Assembly (NCBI RefSeq): GCF_001039275.2
Contig: NZ_CP030117.1
Location: forward strand, 2,666,001-2,730,000
Source of the DNA: Brevibacillus brevis
GTDB lineage: Bacteria; Bacillota; Bacilli; Brevibacillales; Brevibacillaceae
Reading direction: 5' to 3'
Length of the DNA: 64,000 nt
The translations under genes and the position numbers were made by a program. Below are positions 30,098-37,548 of the stretch, in pieces (positions within the stretch are counted from its first letter, which is position 1; every line of letters begins with the position of its first letter). The notes under the pieces are model-generated. The model ran no database searches. It was not told the DNA's origin and saw only the letters and a program-made list of their open reading frames with translations.

Positions 30098-30256
30098 GGT
30101 ATTGGAATCGAATTACCTCAAGGCGTTCAGGACTATAGAAGGTCAACTAATGATATTGTGTTTGTTCATGCGGCTGGAACAATTGGAACTCTTTACAACC
30201 TAAATTTGGTAATTCAAACCCTGATGCTGGGTAAGATTATTTTGAAAGAAGAATAA
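30098..30256 (+). pseudogene. Possible decayed coding remnant in a gene-poor stretch
   Basis: Between 30054 and 30515 I see no intact gene. One frame stays open for 52 codons from 30098 to TAA at 30254, with protein-like composition (LPQGVQDYRRSTNDIVFV and so on) but no start codon or ribosome site. The rest (30257-30515) is AT-rich and holds nothing I recognise. It marks the left edge of the accessory island. Confidence 0.25.
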
Positions 30257-30515
30257 CAGAAAACCCCAGCTAAGAATCGAATCAAAACCCCTGTAGGAAA
30301 TACCGTTTTCTTACAAGGATTTTAATGCGCATCCCTCACTTGTACTAAAAATGGTCTTTAAAATTAATCTTGAAGCTCCTTAAGTAATACCTCTACACTA
30401 ATATAGCTGCCAATTTGTTGTATTTACTGGAAGGCTGGATTCCTTTTTATCGTAATCAAATTTCTGCATTAACCAGTCTACACGAGCCTGTATTAATTTT
30501 TAAGGTATTTCCAAG

Positions 30516-32087
30516 TTAGAACTTAGACAAACCGCTCAGCATGGCGGCATGACCGAATGTGACCATAGGCACGGATTGATGAATATCTTTCGCGTTCCAA
30601 AACGCTGGAGCAATCGTGGGAGAGCCTGTTGTATGTTTCAAATATCCATGACCGAAATAAACCAGGGAGCAGCGGTCGTCTGAGTGTCGTTCTGTCGCAA
30701 TCAACCCATTTTTAGGACTCAAGGGTGGTCCTGATGTGAATTTGACCAGTGGGCTTTTGTCAATCCAACCTTCCGATCCGGTGTAAGCGGTTTGGTAGCA
30801 GCGCGCCATCCGCTGAGAATCCCGTCTTAACCATTCGGGGAGGTATTTATCCAGGGCATCTCGAGCGTCGGCTTCTCCATCGTGGTTCCAAACCTCCTTC
30901 CAAGCATTAAGAAACGGAGCCACATCCGCGCCGAAGAGGGTGTGCCCGTTGAGTCCATTGATGTTGATATTGAAACTCCGATCGTCTATTTTCTGACCGA
31001 TCTGGGTTGGAATCATGTTTGCTATTGGTTTCATACCAGAACTAAAACCGCTTAAAACGACTCGTTGTACCGAGGGGGGTGGTTGGTGGATACGGTTGAA
31101 GCGAAAACGCGGAGGTATGGGAGCACGATCCTCATCATGGTTAGTATTACCTCCTGACGTGTAACCTGAACGATGAAGGAAGTGAGTGACCTCGGCTAAA
31201 AGCCGAGATAGACCTGCGGCGTGAGCTAACGGGCCCCAATCCCCGGATGGTTGGATTGGAACCACCACCACTGCTTGACGCTTAGCTGCAAGCAATTGGT
31301 AGACAAGCCATTTATCGCGGAACAAGAAACGATGAGCCTCCGCTGGGTACGGCTGAACAAGGGTATTGTTAATTTTCCAGGCCTTGTAAGGATATTCATT
31401 TAGTGGAGGATAGTGTTCGGGTTTGTCGGTGTTAGTTGGGAAGAAGATAACGAAATCGAGTTTGCTCGGAGTGACACCACGCCAGCGCGGCACCCAAATA
31501 GCTACGAGAAAACGGGGACTTTTCTCGCCGATTCCCCATTCCAACCAAACTAGATCACTGGTTCGACTCGGTTCGATCTTGACTGGTTCACCGTGATTGA
31601 ACCTCCCCCACCCTTCCGTAGGGTTAGTGGGTAATAGGGGGTGTTTCACTGGAATAAAGGGTTCCTCGTTGTTAAACGTTGCCAAGTAACGACCAGTAGG
31701 ATTCCCAGCATGGTCGATCCAGGTAAAGATTCCCTTCGGATTGAATGCATTACGTTGCTTCAATTCTTTATCGGAGATCGGAAAAAGAGGAGCGGCACGG
31801 ATTCGTGACAAGCGGACGATGACGGTTGTGGGAGGTGATACAGTACACACCGGATTGCCCCAAATAAAAGATCCGCCTCCGTTTGGCGGGATGACCTCGA
31901 CTTCTTCCTCTAAATATAAGGGGTGAGTTACTTCGACTTTGAAGAGTCCGTCCGGCAGTGGTCGAAAAACGGCCTGGCCTCGCTCGTCCGTTTTACCGGT
32001 CTTGCGGTCCTCCGACACGACGACAGAAACATCAGCTTCGCTGATTGGTGCACCTGCGGCATCCTTGACTTCGATAATTAGGTCCAT
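30516..32087 (-). CDS. Unknown protein: N-terminal carboxypeptidase-regulatory-like domain plus alpha/beta-hydrolase-like region
   Basis: The protein has 523 aa, with AAGGGAGGG 7 bases before the ATG. Residues 1-85 look like a small beta-sandwich of the CarboxypepD_reg type (IEVKDAAGAPISEADVSVVV, then KTDERGQAVFRPLPDGLFKV). The rest has strands and helices like an alpha/beta hydrolase, with a nucleophile-elbow-like GFSSG near residue 355 and late His residues (HGYLKH, FGHAAM) that could complete a triad. There is no signal peptide, so action is likely cytoplasmic or via an unusual export route. It lies downstream of the 905-aa gene in the same orientation and probably works with it. Confidence 0.7.
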   Translation of the reverse strand: MDLIIEVKDAAGAPISEADVSVVVSEDRKTGKTDERGQAVFRPLPDGLFKVEVTHPLYLEEEVEVIPPNGGGSFIWGNPVCTVSPPTTVIVRLSRIRAAPLFPISDKELKQRNAFNPKGIFTWIDHAGNPTGRYLATFNNEEPFIPVKHPLLPTNPTEGWGRFNHGEPVKIEPSRTSDLVWLEWGIGEKSPRFLVAIWVPRWRGVTPSKLDFVIFFPTNTDKPEHYPPLNEYPYKAWKINNTLVQPYPAEAHRFLFRDKWLVYQLLAAKRQAVVVVPIQPSGDWGPLAHAAGLSRLLAEVTHFLHRSGYTSGGNTNHDEDRAPIPPRFRFNRIHQPPPSVQRVVLSGFSSGMKPIANMIPTQIGQKIDDRSFNININGLNGHTLFGADVAPFLNAWKEVWNHDGEADARDALDKYLPEWLRRDSQRMARCYQTAYTGSEGWIDKSPLVKFTSGPPLSPKNGLIATERHSDDRCSLVYFGHGYLKHTTGSPTIAPAFWNAKDIHQSVPMVTFGHAAMLSGLSKF

Positions 32088-32195
32088 CTGGACCCTCCCT
32101 TCTCAAACTATACAATCTGCCCATAAAATCCATTGACAACATTCGCCTTTTTTACATCTGAATCGTCTCTGCTAAGGTAACGGCACCAATGTATT

Positions 32196-32221
32196 GGGCG
32201 ATGGCATGAGAGCCATCGCCC
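32196..32221 (-). terminator. Strong intercistronic hairpin
   Basis: A 10-bp perfect stem, GGGCGATGGC against GCCATCGCCC, lies between the 905-aa and 523-aa genes. On their strand there is no T run, so it may act as a processing or attenuation structure rather than a full terminator. Confidence 0.5.
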
Positions 32222-32227
32222 CTTTTC

Positions 32228-34945
32228 TCAAAGTTGCTGGCCCGTCCTGGGGTCGTAGCGTACGGCTACGGCAGCCACTTGATCAGTCGGTAGGATCTCG
32301 ACCCATTGGTCGAAAATCTGGTAGGGCTCGGCAGGGCGGAAGCCGCCGGCCAAGGGATCGAATCCGGTTTCAAAGACTTTTTCCGCTGCTAAAGTATTGG
32401 CGACTACTGTATTGGACTCCTTGAGTTGTTGCGCGACGATCTGCAGGACCTCACCGATCTTCTTACCCTGGAAAATCTCAGGGTCCCCTTGTTGGTAGGG
32501 GTAGGGGAGGCCAAGGGCGATCTCTCCTTCGACTTGTGTAAGCCAAGCAAGGGCTGCGACCTCCTGTCCGGGCCGAATCGGCAAGATCGCCTTCACCCAC
32601 GCGGCGTTAAGGAATTCATTGCGTCGCTCATCGCCGTCGATTTGGATCAGCCACCCCAGAGAACTGCCCAAGGGCGCGGGTTGGGTCTGTTCGGTGATGA
32701 GGTAGTTCACCCGCCACTCGGGTTGCCCGTTGATCGCCTTGTACTCGTCCGCTCTGGAGTACCATCCAGCCACGGTCTGCCCTGCGAGCGGCAGCGGCTT
32801 GGTCCCGACCAGCGGGTCCTCCTTCTCGGGGGGCACTGGATATCTGCCAACGCTATTTCTGCTTGGGGGAGGGGGAGACACCGGTCCGGGACGCCAGAAG
32901 TCGGGGGCGACGAAGTACAGCATCTCTTCCACATCAAAGAATTGCTGGATTTGCTGCGATTCCAGATACGGGAGTGGATTCGGGCTCTGGGGGTAGAGAT
33001 TGAGTTCCTCTAGCCGACGGATTAGTCTGCGGAACACCCCCCGGCGTTCTTCACTGCGCAGGTCCTCAGCAGATCGGGGGCGAATTGAACTAACCAGTCG
33101 CAGTCGCTCGCGGACGGCCTTCCCGTACGCCTCGTGTTGCAGCTGTGATACCTCCTTCTGATAGGCAGCTTCAGCATCAGCGTTGGCCTGGATAACATCC
33201 TGCTTGGCCTGCTCCGTCGGGATGTAGAGTAAGATAAAGTCTATGGGTAGGGACTTTTTGCCTTGAAAATTGGCGTAGGTCAACTGTAGCTTTATTTTGT
33301 TAAGTTCAGTCAGCAGATCGCACTTGTACTCAATCTGGGCGCCGTGATGGTCTTTAGAAACGATCTGGCTAAGGGAATAGCCCTGCGGAGGTGGTGGCAA
33401 TTGTATATCAAAGCAGAACTGGATGGTGTTGTCTGTGCCGACAAGAGGCTTACTCAGCCCGCGACAAACGTTGTCGGGATGTGGCGTATAAGTATTAACG
33501 GCTTCATCGTCCTCTCCCGCGTCATGGAGGAACGGAAGATCAAAGTGGAATGGCACCTGCTTGTCCGCCGGAAGTGGCAACTTCTCGGGTTTACTGATTG
33601 CAGTAAGATCCGGGGCATCTACCACATGAACCATGTCTCCCAGTCCGAGGTCCTTGCCAGGCTCGCCGATATACACCTGCCAGCACAGCCGTGTACCGAC
33701 GTGCTGCAGCTGTACACCGATCTTGCGCATCTTGCGCCGAAGTTCGTAGTTAACCAGTTCCGTGGTGATGTTTTGCAGGACATAGCGGCGGCTAGATGTG
33801 TCGGTGGTCTCGGTCACCGTCTTGAAGCTAGTCTTGAAATTCCGCCTGATCTCGCTAGTGACCTTGGCGGTTTGCGTACGAGTTTGTTTGTGTACCGCTT
33901 CTGAGGCCCGCTTGATTGTGTTTTGAGTGCTGAAGCTGGCGCTTGCATCGGCATGGTAAATAGGGGCGTTCACACCACCAGTTGCACTGACGCCAAGTTT
34001 GGTGTCTCTGGAGTTCTCCTCCTTGACTGAGTCCGCGACATCGTCCTGATCCGTGAGGGTATCCTCTGTCTTGCGGGAAATCTCCTCCGTTTGCTCGGCA
34101 ACCTTCTCAACCAGCGTGCGTCGGGTACTGGTCTCAATCACCTCCACGGTGCCCCCAGGGCTGACCCAGATGTGACCCGCAGGTGCGCCAAGGAAAGTAT
34201 CGAATTCAAAGAAGTACTCCCTGAAGAGGTTCACAAGCCCCACCGGGGACAGTACACCAGCAGTGAGGGACTCGTAGCGCTCTGCTAGGGCTGCTAGGGC
34301 CTCATCGCTCAAGGTACTGGCGCTGTCCCCCCAGAACCGCTCACGGGTCAACCCCGCAAACACAGTCTCGGGATGCACCGCGGCGGCTGACATCGCAGAC
34401 AGTGAGCTAAACCAACCGGCCAGGGGCTGGTAGACGCCGAAGAGCTCACTGGCGTATGGGAGGGTACCGACGAAATCGTACACAGGTCGACCGGTGTATG
34501 CAGGTGCACCGGGAGCTGGCAGGGGGAGGAGCTGAGTTTGGCTGGGAGTACCGTCCGATGTGGCGGCGAATGGCATAGACACCCACGCATTACCGGGTGT
34601 TGACTTGAAAAGTTGCACATTACCAGAGGACGTGCGGGCAGGGGCAACGAAAGCGATGGTCAGATTGCCGGTAGAGCTGGCAGTACGACCCACGTACTGT
34701 AGACCTGACGCAAGATCTCGCGAAACGAACGTCCCCTCCAAAGCGGTCACGTTAGGGAAGAAGCTCGGGTCCTGCACATTAACATTACCCGGCAGCGCAA
34801 GAGCCCACCGCTGCCCCTCCTTTATATCTGAACCTGGTCCTGATCCTGATATGCTATCAATCTTGTAAGACCAAATCTTGAACATGGTACCAGCCCCCGG
34901 TATTGCGATTGCCGACGTACCAACGTGTGTGACCAAAAGAGCCAT
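32228..34945 (-). CDS. Large protein of unknown function (905 aa)
   Basis: It is read from an ATG behind AAGGAGGAG. I do not recognise the family. Residues 1-180 are beta-rich and Gly/Pro/Ser-rich. A long helical, charged section covers about 275-400 (Thr, Glu and Lys rich, coiled-coil-like) and contains a small glycine-rich patch (GVSATGGVNAPIYHADAS). A conserved-looking block RRKMRKIGVQLQHVGTRLCW follows. A second helical section lies near 590-650, then a Pro-rich linker (PVSPPPPSRNS) near 695 and a compact C-terminal domain. There is no signal peptide and no clear membrane segment. The gene is visibly GC-richer than its flanks, which suggests acquisition. Confidence 0.7.
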   Translation of the reverse strand: MALLVTHVGTSAIAIPGAGTMFKIWSYKIDSISGSGPGSDIKEGQRWALALPGNVNVQDPSFFPNVTALEGTFVSRDLASGLQYVGRTASSTGNLTIAFVAPARTSSGNVQLFKSTPGNAWVSMPFAATSDGTPSQTQLLPLPAPGAPAYTGRPVYDFVGTLPYASELFGVYQPLAGWFSSLSAMSAAAVHPETVFAGLTRERFWGDSASTLSDEALAALAERYESLTAGVLSPVGLVNLFREYFFEFDTFLGAPAGHIWVSPGGTVEVIETSTRRTLVEKVAEQTEEISRKTEDTLTDQDDVADSVKEENSRDTKLGVSATGGVNAPIYHADASASFSTQNTIKRASEAVHKQTRTQTAKVTSEIRRNFKTSFKTVTETTDTSSRRYVLQNITTELVNYELRRKMRKIGVQLQHVGTRLCWQVYIGEPGKDLGLGDMVHVVDAPDLTAISKPEKLPLPADKQVPFHFDLPFLHDAGEDDEAVNTYTPHPDNVCRGLSKPLVGTDNTIQFCFDIQLPPPPQGYSLSQIVSKDHHGAQIEYKCDLLTELNKIKLQLTYANFQGKKSLPIDFILLYIPTEQAKQDVIQANADAEAAYQKEVSQLQHEAYGKAVRERLRLVSSIRPRSAEDLRSEERRGVFRRLIRRLEELNLYPQSPNPLPYLESQQIQQFFDVEEMLYFVAPDFWRPGPVSPPPPSRNSVGRYPVPPEKEDPLVGTKPLPLAGQTVAGWYSRADEYKAINGQPEWRVNYLITEQTQPAPLGSSLGWLIQIDGDERRNEFLNAAWVKAILPIRPGQEVAALAWLTQVEGEIALGLPYPYQQGDPEIFQGKKIGEVLQIVAQQLKESNTVVANTLAAEKVFETGFDPLAGGFRPAEPYQIFDQWVEILPTDQVAAVAVRYDPRTGQQL

Positions 34946-35328
34946 AGAAACTCCTCCTTCTCTATAGATTTATACATAGAAATTACCTTTTTCTATTTCA
35001 TCAAAAGATATTTTGGCTGTTAGACATGAGATTATCCAAAAAACGTTACTTTAATGAATGAATGTAAATAAACCATTAGATGATTGTTACGTCAAAAAAG
35101 ACAGTTCGGGACTCATCCCATGGAAAAATGCTTGCACAATAAAACAGCCCAAGACATATTCTTTGTAAATTTTGAAAGAGGGGGCCTCACACCAGAAGTA
35201 AAAAAGACTCTCAAAGCCCTCCAATCAGCGCAATTCAAGCATAAATGTGGGCGATAGAAACCGAAACAAAAGCCAAAGCCACTTCTAAAAACGCTGAGGT
35301 TTGTATAACTTTAGAAGCTATACTTTGA

Positions 35329-35817
35329 CAAGGACTCCTTAGTTCAAGAATATTTGGAATATCAGTTAGGTCGGAACTCGCAAAAAGCCTCAGCTTAGAT
35401 AGGATACAACGAGTTGTTTCCGGAGAAGCGGAAGTATCAGAAGGGACAGGAAATTTATACAGTTCGGAAATAGGGAGGGATTATACTCGAATATTTAACC
35501 CATCCGTTGAGGAACAACTAGAAGCGGGTATAGACACCGGCGAGGAATTGGAGTCGATCATTGAAACAAAGTATTTTGCAGAGCTAGTTACGATTTGGAT
35601 GGATGCTCTAAATGAGCATAGACAACAACGCGATTCTACGAAATGATTTAATAGCGTTAGAAAAAAACGGATAGTATTAAAAAAGACAGAAGTAGATAGC
35701 TACAAAAAGCCGCTTGTTCCGGACTTAGATGAACTGCCAGAAGAATTTGCGCCAGGTGTATCGCGGGAAGACTTTATGAAAATCGCGGAACGCTTGCAAA
35801 GGTCAGCGGAGATGTAG
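35329..35817 (+). pseudogene. Decayed gene interrupted by an in-frame TGA
   Basis: One frame runs from 35329 to TAG at 35815-35817 with a single TGA at 35644-35646. Both halves are protein-like. The first contains GEAEVSEGTGNLYSSEIGRD and KYFAELVTIWMDALNEHRQQ, the second KKPLVPDLDELPEEFAPG. No usable start is visible for either. A further fragment (EVKKTLKALQSAQF) lies upstream near 35195 in another frame. Otherwise 34946-35911 holds no intact gene. It looks like the residue of a mobile or phage-like gene next to the recombinase. The family was not identified. Confidence 0.5.
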
Positions 35818-35911: not shown

Positions 35912-37024
35912 TTAAGTAGTTCGGTTCACAGCCTTGCCCAAAGCATCTTCTAATACATGGGCATACTGCATGGTCGTTTCAATTTTGGAGTGCCCCAGTT
36001 GTGCTTGGAGCTGATGGGGGTCAGGGTTCAACCGGAGAAACTGTGTAGCAAAGCTGTGACGAAGCTTATGGACAGACAAATCGGGGATGCCGAATGCTTT
36101 GGCATACTTTTTGACCAGCTTTTGGACAGACCGCACTTCAATGCGATGCCCATTTGGATTGGTAGGGGAAACAGCGAGAAAAACAGCGTCCTCTTGCGGT
36201 TCGGGATTGTATTTGTCACGCACCTGCAAGTATTTGGCTAAGTACTCCTTGCCCCAATCACTGAAAAAAGGAGCGTCCTCTTTCTTTCCTTTGCGAATCA
36301 ATTTCAACTGGTTTTTTTCCATAATAATGTCGGATAGATCGAGACTGACGATCTCTGACACTCGGAAGCCACCGGAGAGAATCATCGCGATCAAGGCAGT
36401 ATCCCGGTCGCGGTTTTGCATGTGATACTGCTTCTTTTTCTCCGTATCACAATGGGCTAGATAGCCGTTGTAGACAAAATCGACGAACTGATAGATTTCG
36501 TCGTCAATCAGGATTTTTGCCCGAATGGCATGGGCGCGCGCGAGGGGAGTCAGCTCCGTGATCTCCAGCTCGATTTTGGCGAGTACATTCCGCGTCAAAT
36601 ACGATTCCCCATTCTCGTCTTCAGCGAGAGCGGATAAGTAATGAAAAAGCGATTTCAGGCTCGATATTTTTCTGCTGATCGTACGGTCGCTGTACTCTTT
36701 CTTCGCGCTTTTGGTAGGGTTCGAGAGCAAAGCAGATCGCTCATACAAATGCGACTCCTGCAAGTATAAGATGTAGCTTTCAACCGTTTCCTTCTTCAAG
36801 TCATTCAAGTCGCTTAACGGAATGTCCTTCATATCCGCTGCGGTACTTAATCCTTCTGTCATCATCCAGCGAAAGAAAAAAGAGAAATCGCGAAGGTATC
36901 CAAGCAAGGTGGAGGGGGAATTCTTTTTTGCTTTTTTATGCTCAATAAACTTTTCGACATACCATGGGTAGGAGCCGACTGTCTGCAAAAGCTGCAAGGC
37001 ATCGCGCTGTTTGGTAACGGACAT
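35912..37024 (-). CDS. xerS: Tyrosine recombinase XerS
   Basis: The protein has 370 aa from the ATG at 37024, with GGTGGTGAAAG upstream. Longer in-frame starts lack a ribosome site. An N-terminal SAM-like core-binding domain (about residues 18-140) is followed by the catalytic domain. Its residues are Arg in GGFRVSEIVSLD, Lys in LIRKGKKE, HKLRHSFAT, His in LGHSKIETT and the nucleophile Tyr in MQYAHVL. Length and sequence fit XerS, the single-recombinase system that resolves chromosome dimers in streptococci and some bacilli. It is divergent from the ferredoxin gene. It could also be the integrase of the neighbouring remnant. Confidence 0.82.
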   Translation of the reverse strand: MSVTKQRDALQLLQTVGSYPWYVEKFIEHKKAKKNSPSTLLGYLRDFSFFFRWMMTEGLSTAADMKDIPLSDLNDLKKETVESYILYLQESHLYERSALLSNPTKSAKKEYSDRTISRKISSLKSLFHYLSALAEDENGESYLTRNVLAKIELEITELTPLARAHAIRAKILIDDEIYQFVDFVYNGYLAHCDTEKKKQYHMQNRDRDTALIAMILSGGFRVSEIVSLDLSDIIMEKNQLKLIRKGKKEDAPFFSDWGKEYLAKYLQVRDKYNPEPQEDAVFLAVSPTNPNGHRIEVRSVQKLVKKYAKAFGIPDLSVHKLRHSFATQFLRLNPDPHQLQAQLGHSKIETTMQYAHVLEDALGKAVNRTT

Positions 37025-37170
37025 GCTTTCACCACCAACATCTTTTTGTAAATCGTATACGAACATATATTCTATCAAAAACCAAACGTTCTGGGAATTG
37101 CAAATTGAGCAAGAAACCGTCATGATGGGGAGTGTGGATGGATATTGGACAAGAACGGAGTGGATATGAA

Positions 37171-37548
37171 GTGGCAACATGGGACTTATCTCAGACAAAG
37201 CATCACGTGCTGATTTGTAATGGTGGAAGCTGTATGCGCAAGGGTGGCGAAGAGGTTACGGTAGCGATACGCGAAGCGATTACCAACGCAGGCTTGGATG
37301 ACTATGTACATACAACTCGCACGCGCTGCAACGGGCGATGTGAGGACGCATGCGTGATGATCGTGTACCCTGAGGGAATCTGGTATGAAAACGTGACGCC
37401 AGAGGATGCACAGATGTTGGTGGAAGAGCATTTTCAAAATGGCAGACCAGTAGAGGCCTTGATGACGCATCGCTTCGAAACAAACGGTTTTGTGCGTACG
37501 ATCGACACCAAGCCTGGTATCTTAAAATCACAAAAGGCAAAAAAATGA
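37171..37548 (+). CDS. (2Fe-2S) ferredoxin domain protein, thioredoxin-like fold
   Basis: The protein has 125 aa if started at the GTG at 37171 behind GGAGTGG. ATG 37138 and GTG 37132 are upstream alternatives. The four cluster cysteines are visible in CNGGSC and CNGRCEDAC, the spacing of the NuoE-like thioredoxin-fold ferredoxins. These carry electrons or act as cluster-containing subunits. No partner gene adjoins it. Confidence 0.85.
   Translation: MATWDLSQTKHHVLICNGGSCMRKGGEEVTVAIREAITNAGLDDYVHTTRTRCNGRCEDACVMIVYPEGIWYENVTPEDAQMLVEEHFQNGRPVEALMTHRFETNGFVRTIDTKPGILKSQKAKK

Follow-up and report, generated by a model that had tools for sequence, protein, structure and literature searches.

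A mobile two-gene locus of Brevibacillus brevis couples a protein of no curated family with exchangeable hydrolase or toxin-like partners

Polymorphic toxin systems and the effector sets of type VI secretion systems (T6SS), which include Tle-type lipases, phospholipase D (PLD) enzymes and Tlde1, combine a conserved part for delivery or trafficking with enzymatic toxins that recombine and are interchangeable. CBASS-type systems (cyclic oligonucleotide-based antiphage signaling systems) also join a conserved component to interchangeable killing enzymes, patatin included. We describe here a two-gene locus resembling both, located in a 64,000-nucleotide stretch of Brevibacillus brevis DNA (contig NZ_CP030117.1, positions 2,666,001 to 2,730,000 of the forward strand; hereafter the window) from a genome assembled as a single contig of 6.44 Mb. 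Its two genes, termed P1 and P2, are as follows in window coordinates:

32228 to 34945, minus strand: P1, an intact 905-aa open reading frame (ORF) encoding an unannotated protein, upstream of P2 (ORF call, no family match, alignment A1, structural model).
30516 to 32087, minus strand: P2, an intact 523-aa ORF encoding a CarboxypepD_reg-like domain (residues 7-65) plus an alpha/beta-hydrolase, with the candidate triad Ser349/Asp403/His503.

A preliminary sequence-only reading of the window had proposed two genes of these lengths on one strand with strong ribosome sites; the ORFs are exact and the sites can be read from the sequence 5' of P1 (gaaggaggagtttctATG) and 5' of P2 (gaagggagggtccagATG). 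The enzyme types encoded beside P1 and its relatives (patatin, PLD, Tlde1-like) overlap those of the polymorphic toxin and T6SS sets. The locus differs from these sets in that the effector is a separate gene and not a C-terminal domain, in that P1 is unlike the known trafficking domains in the libraries searched, and in that neither an immunity gene nor a secretion cluster is seen beside P1 and P2. From CBASS-type systems it differs by the lack of a significant PADLOC match for P1 and of an adjoining cyclase or other signaling enzyme.

Scanning genome contigs yielded 18 P1 loci in actinomycetes, 17 of them near full length with 48-65% identity; the P1 of a Streptomycetaceae plasmid reaches 67% identity to that of the window. 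Occurrence is patchy, with P1 in 9 of 346 Streptomycetaceae and 21 of 299 Streptosporangiales genomes, some as fragments. Broken P1 genes in Nonomuraea jabiensis (L025:8001-8792) and in a Streptosporangiales genome (L096:6540-7385) show that the module has decayed in part of its hosts. Within the genus, the pair was found in one of 25 other sampled genomes (G419), at a different site and among other neighbor genes. P2 homologues directly adjoin P1 in about ten actinomycete loci, and all eight P2-family genes of the 299 Streptosporangiales genomes do so (hypergeometric p 1.4e-10); no P2-family gene without P1 was found in the sampled genomes. The linkage is one-way, P1 occurring also with partners other than P2. 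On sequence evidence, the P1-P2 pair is real and co-occurs far beyond chance. The profile searches and co-occurrence counts that the sequence-only reading had called for did not give the opposite picture, in which the proteins would clearly match unrelated families and would not co-occur.

Partners could be assigned at 33 P1 loci, a count that takes in the window, G419 and L097, a remote relative. Twenty-one belong to one blastp-linked hydrolase cluster, five to a second cluster of GxSxG type and three carry a similar motif; the remaining ones are a PLD enzyme (PLDc, 3e-11), a beta-helix protein (Beta_helix, 2e-12), an AstE/AspA-like protein (AstE_AspA, 0.0045, below cut-off) and one unclassified protein. 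By profile comparison P2 is kin to the 'YSxSG' subgroup. A kinship of the second hydrolase cluster (A7) with P2 (A3) was rejected, as their profiles share nothing beyond the nucleophile motif. Beside remote P1 relatives, patatin-like phospholipases are encoded downstream in Natronorubrum, across a 72-codon ORF, and upstream in Chryseobacterium (Patatin matches of 5.6e-22 and 1.1e-28), a Tlde1_dom match occurs in Nonomuraea (1.4e-5, 25.9 bits versus a cut-off of 30.1), and on a Streptomyces plasmid Ntox4 is matched weakly (0.015) two genes away from the relative. Tlde1a is a T6SS effector that targets peptidoglycan (PMC9638812). Directly 3' of remote relatives in Aulosira and two actinomycetes, a family of 343-363 aa without Pfam match (L007:8196-9284, L084:8877-9911, L085:8612-9640) is a candidate for another effector family. 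In Amycolatopsis regifaucium, an 803-aa ORF with a weakly OmpA-like C-terminus (L018:10733-13021) follows P1 instead of a hydrolase. A 705-aa Cupriavidus protein (L121:8639-10756) follows a remote P1 relative; it has no significant Pfam match, and by eye it shows a hydrophobic stretch and a C-terminal region like those of polymorphic toxins.

A tree built from 36 P1 proteins calls for at least 15 switches of partner class, counted over 10 classes with the four rows lacking an assigned partner pooled as one class. The P1 of the window nests with those of Streptomycetaceae (100/100 support) and the P1 of G419 belongs to a distant branch; the two P1 proteins are 36% identical, versus 66% for their P2 proteins. 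The simplest account of this mismatch, judging from the identities, would be that one gene of the pair was replaced. In Embleya, the P1 is 69% identical to that of the window and its partner has no full-length similarity to P2. Read from these alignments, P1 is kept through changes of its partner. Such repeated exchange along the P1 tree favors a conserved carrier with an exchangeable effector, and we assign a probability of about 0.5 to the reading that P1 and P2 form a two-gene effector module in which P1 is a conserved carrier or activator and P2 one of many exchangeable effector enzymes. The mobile two-gene module with exchangeable enzymes is real and apparently undescribed; no description of the pair surfaced in the part of the literature on variable effectors, polymorphic toxins and Tlde1/Ntox4 that was covered. 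The sequence-only reading had seen a candidate for an undescribed system, to which a particle component or scaffold with a cargo enzyme, or an effector pair, would fit. The absence of P1 from curated families, the co-occurrence and the partner exchange agree with this proposal; a particle or scaffold role of P1 would be conjectural.

P2 was modelled by AlphaFold as an alpha/beta-hydrolase (predicted template modelling score, pTM, 0.80; predicted local distance difference test, pLDDT, 71). Its best 50 structural matches are alpha/beta-hydrolases by title, one uncharacterised entry included, with a best Z of 14.1 over 222 residues. The nearest solved folds (Z 12-14) are CE1 feruloyl esterases, S-formylglutathione hydrolases, CE15 glucuronoyl esterases and mycoloyltransferases, with which P2 shares the fold over about 220 residues and the Ser-Asp-His order. 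P2 differs from these enzymes by an identity of only 5-14%, by its extra N-terminal CarboxypepD_reg domain, by its strict linkage to P1 and by the lack of a sequence match to any Pfam hydrolase family. Both parts anticipated from the sequence, a CarboxypepD_reg-like domain and a GFSSG hydrolase core, were recovered: the former matches at residues 7-65 (E 8e-8, 32.9 bits versus a cut-off of 32.3), and Ser349 of GFSSG, Asp403 and His503 are invariant in 11 P2 homologues, in the order GxSxG nucleophile, acid and His. By predicted fold and conserved candidate triad P2 is an alpha/beta-hydrolase; no Pfam or NCBIfam esterase match was obtained, so that it has no curated CE1 membership, and the modelled fold it shares with these enzymes does not give its substrate.

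The CE1 and CE15 folds would also suit the handling of a polymer, in which a CBM-like (carbohydrate-binding module) N-terminal beta-sandwich of P1 binds a polysaccharide or storage polymer and P2 acts on it as a feruloyl- or glucuronoyl-type esterase. Indeed, the top structural matches of P1 residues 1-141 are carbohydrate-binding or beta-sandwich domains. However, only this N-terminal sandwich and the 460-577 beta domain of P1 were listed in the structure comparison, with Z no higher than 6.9, the range of common arrangements, and we therefore do not claim carbohydrate binding by P1. The fold of P2 is moreover common to many esterases, signal peptides are not evident, the PLD, patatin and Tlde1-like partners are no polymer esterases, and the N-terminal domain of P1 (about 160 residues in alignment A1) is replaced in the branch that includes G419. 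We consider polymer handling improbable.

P1 has no significant match in Pfam, NCBIfam, PHROG, PADLOC or PDB. It comprises an N-terminal beta-sandwich (1-145), a core (226-442), a beta domain followed by long helices (460-647) and a C-terminal region highly conserved to the last residues. The long charged helical sections and Pro-rich linker noted beforehand correspond to predicted helices at 578-620 and 626-647 and to a Pro-rich stretch near residue 690. Conservation is strongest in the core, which alignment A1 shows as invariant over about residues 232-434:

33620 to 34270, minus strand: most conserved core of P1 (residues ~226-442), common to remote relatives, with a candidate alternating beta-hairpin at residues 317-341 (33923-33997).

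Two weak single matches located in a charged, Ser/Thr-rich stretch, PHROG 'head maturation protease' (0.035) and PADLOC HEC-06 (0.011), were rejected. Nothing spoke for P1 as a phage structural protein: scans of viral contigs with P1 or P2 alone gave nothing, the P1 profile gave one contig, and no phage record matched. The IMG/VR contig L098 (8013-12439) carries a P1 relative (39%) with an AstE/AspA-like partner; it also holds insertion sequence (IS) transposases and chromosomal-type genes, and may thus be bacterial and not viral. In a comparison with encapsulins, P1 had no Pfam or PDB sequence match and its model was too poor to judge an HK97 fold. Profile alignment linked P1 to cyanobacterial and actinomycete proteins (A4; hhalign 97.8%, E 7.5e-13) and to rhizobial, burkholderial, bacteroidetal and haloarchaeal proteins (A5; 97.1%, E 5e-11), the E-values being single-pair values based on few sequences.

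In the effector module reading, P1 would carry, assemble around, insert or activate its partner enzyme, here P2 as a serine esterase/lipase-type alpha/beta-hydrolase effector. The two proteins would bind each other, and P1 would oligomerise and either bring P2 across a membrane, a step in which the alternating hairpin of the P1 core may serve, or switch P2 on at the membrane; the substrate would be an ester or lipid of the target cell, and the partners at large may be toxins. The hairpin segment 317-341 shows an amphipathic alternation above permutations in A1 and A5, two of three branches. Several observations weigh against this reading. The hairpin segment was chosen post hoc, and its alternation is borderline in A4 (p 0.07); when P1 was scanned for a membrane hairpin by general beta-moment, values stayed below the shuffled maximum and 317-341 did not stand out. 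Structure prediction, which had been proposed as a check, folded P2 but left the P1 core mostly below a pLDDT of 45 in a model made with 17 sequences, so a pore or carrier function lacks structural support. No third gene is conserved beside the pair and no immunity gene adjoins it or occurs in the window. At 29 P1 loci the neighborhood consists of ordinary genes of metabolism and regulation, and no secretion apparatus lies next to the pair. The Tlde1, AstE and Ntox4 matches are all below curated cut-offs. Finally, neither protein has a hydrophobic N-terminal signal by eye, in agreement with the sequence-only reading, and release by lysis or some export route is therefore assumed.

The last point would suit a role in intracellular defence, in which P1 senses invasion and P2 is an interchangeable killing effector damaging the cell's own membrane, in the manner of CBASS-type variable effectors. 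Known abortive-infection effectors include enzymes like the patatin and PLD partners, and sparse distribution with horizontal transfer is also in keeping with defence. On the other hand, neither P1 nor P2 has a PADLOC match with E below 0.01. Matches among 111 neighboring genes, scanned as a test for defence islands, were scattered, none in more than three, with no recurrent system, and a Tlde1-like, peptidoglycan-type partner fits a cytoplasmic effector poorly. We hold defence to be rather unlikely and keep delivery as our leading guess, although the data separate the two poorly.

Alternatively, P1 could be a tail, baseplate or effector-chaperone component serving extracellular contractile injection systems whose genes lie at other sites of the genome. 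Ntox4, which matches weakly beside a remote P1 relative, is listed as a toxin associated with PVC (Photorhabdus virulence cassettes; PMC3482391), and Pvc16_N, the sole marker used for co-occurrence, is present in genomes G000 and G419. This marker is nevertheless not enriched, occurring in 11 of 28 P1-positive versus 8 of 28 P1-negative genomes (Fisher p 0.57); 17 of the 28 P1 carriers lack it, and within the genus six of the eight genomes that have it are without P1. Such a role appears very improbable.

Returning to the locus itself, the gap between the genes and the surrounding block are delimited as follows:

32088 to 32227, minus strand: intergenic gap of 140 bp with a 10-bp G+C-rich stem-loop; the ribosome site of P2 lies at its end.
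30108 to 35712, no strand: inserted block, flanked by two conserved genes, for a transglycosylase and a tyrosine recombinase, and not at this site in five sister species.

The hairpin that had been noticed between the genes folds with a z of -2.7, which 3 of 200 shuffles match and the other 197 do not reach. Because the T-run lies on the plus strand, the hairpin is no intrinsic terminator in the P1-to-P2 direction; an mRNA element, or a terminator acting in the opposite direction, is more likely. The reported difference in composition between genes and flanks was also found: G+C content is 0.57 in P1 and 0.51 in P2, versus 0.48 for the window and 0.36 and 0.37 for the A+T-rich flanks of the pair, which lack long ORFs. 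The five sister species carry the sequences to the left of 30107 and to the right of about 35713 at 90-96% identity, either directly joined or no more than about 1.2 kb apart, indicating that the pair sits on a block of about 5.6 kb. As judged from these comparisons, the pair is a horizontally acquired block between conserved chromosomal genes. A tyrosine recombinase gene (35912-37198) adjoins the block inside the stretch conserved in sister species and is thus probably outside the acquired DNA.

Cassette exchange between Actinomycetota and Bacillota is seen. The pairing of P1 with an exchangeable hydrolase or toxin-like partner forms a rare module that recurs in many unrelated bacteria, and suggests that effectors are carried or controlled by an undescribed means. 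More tentatively, P1 could be the first representative of a protein superfamily that is both widespread (Actinomycetota, Bacillota, Pseudomonadota, Cyanobacteriota, Bacteroidota and haloarchaea) and undescribed. A single protein of this kind would by itself deliver effector enzymes that are encoded separately and exchanged freely, or activate them at a membrane. If so, an unrecognised superfamily without a Pfam family would accompany lipases, phospholipases and enzymes resembling toxins across several bacterial phyla and in one archaeon, new effectors would be findable through their P1 neighbor, and the pair would be a compact system of two proteins in which to study how an effector gets to its target without a signal peptide.
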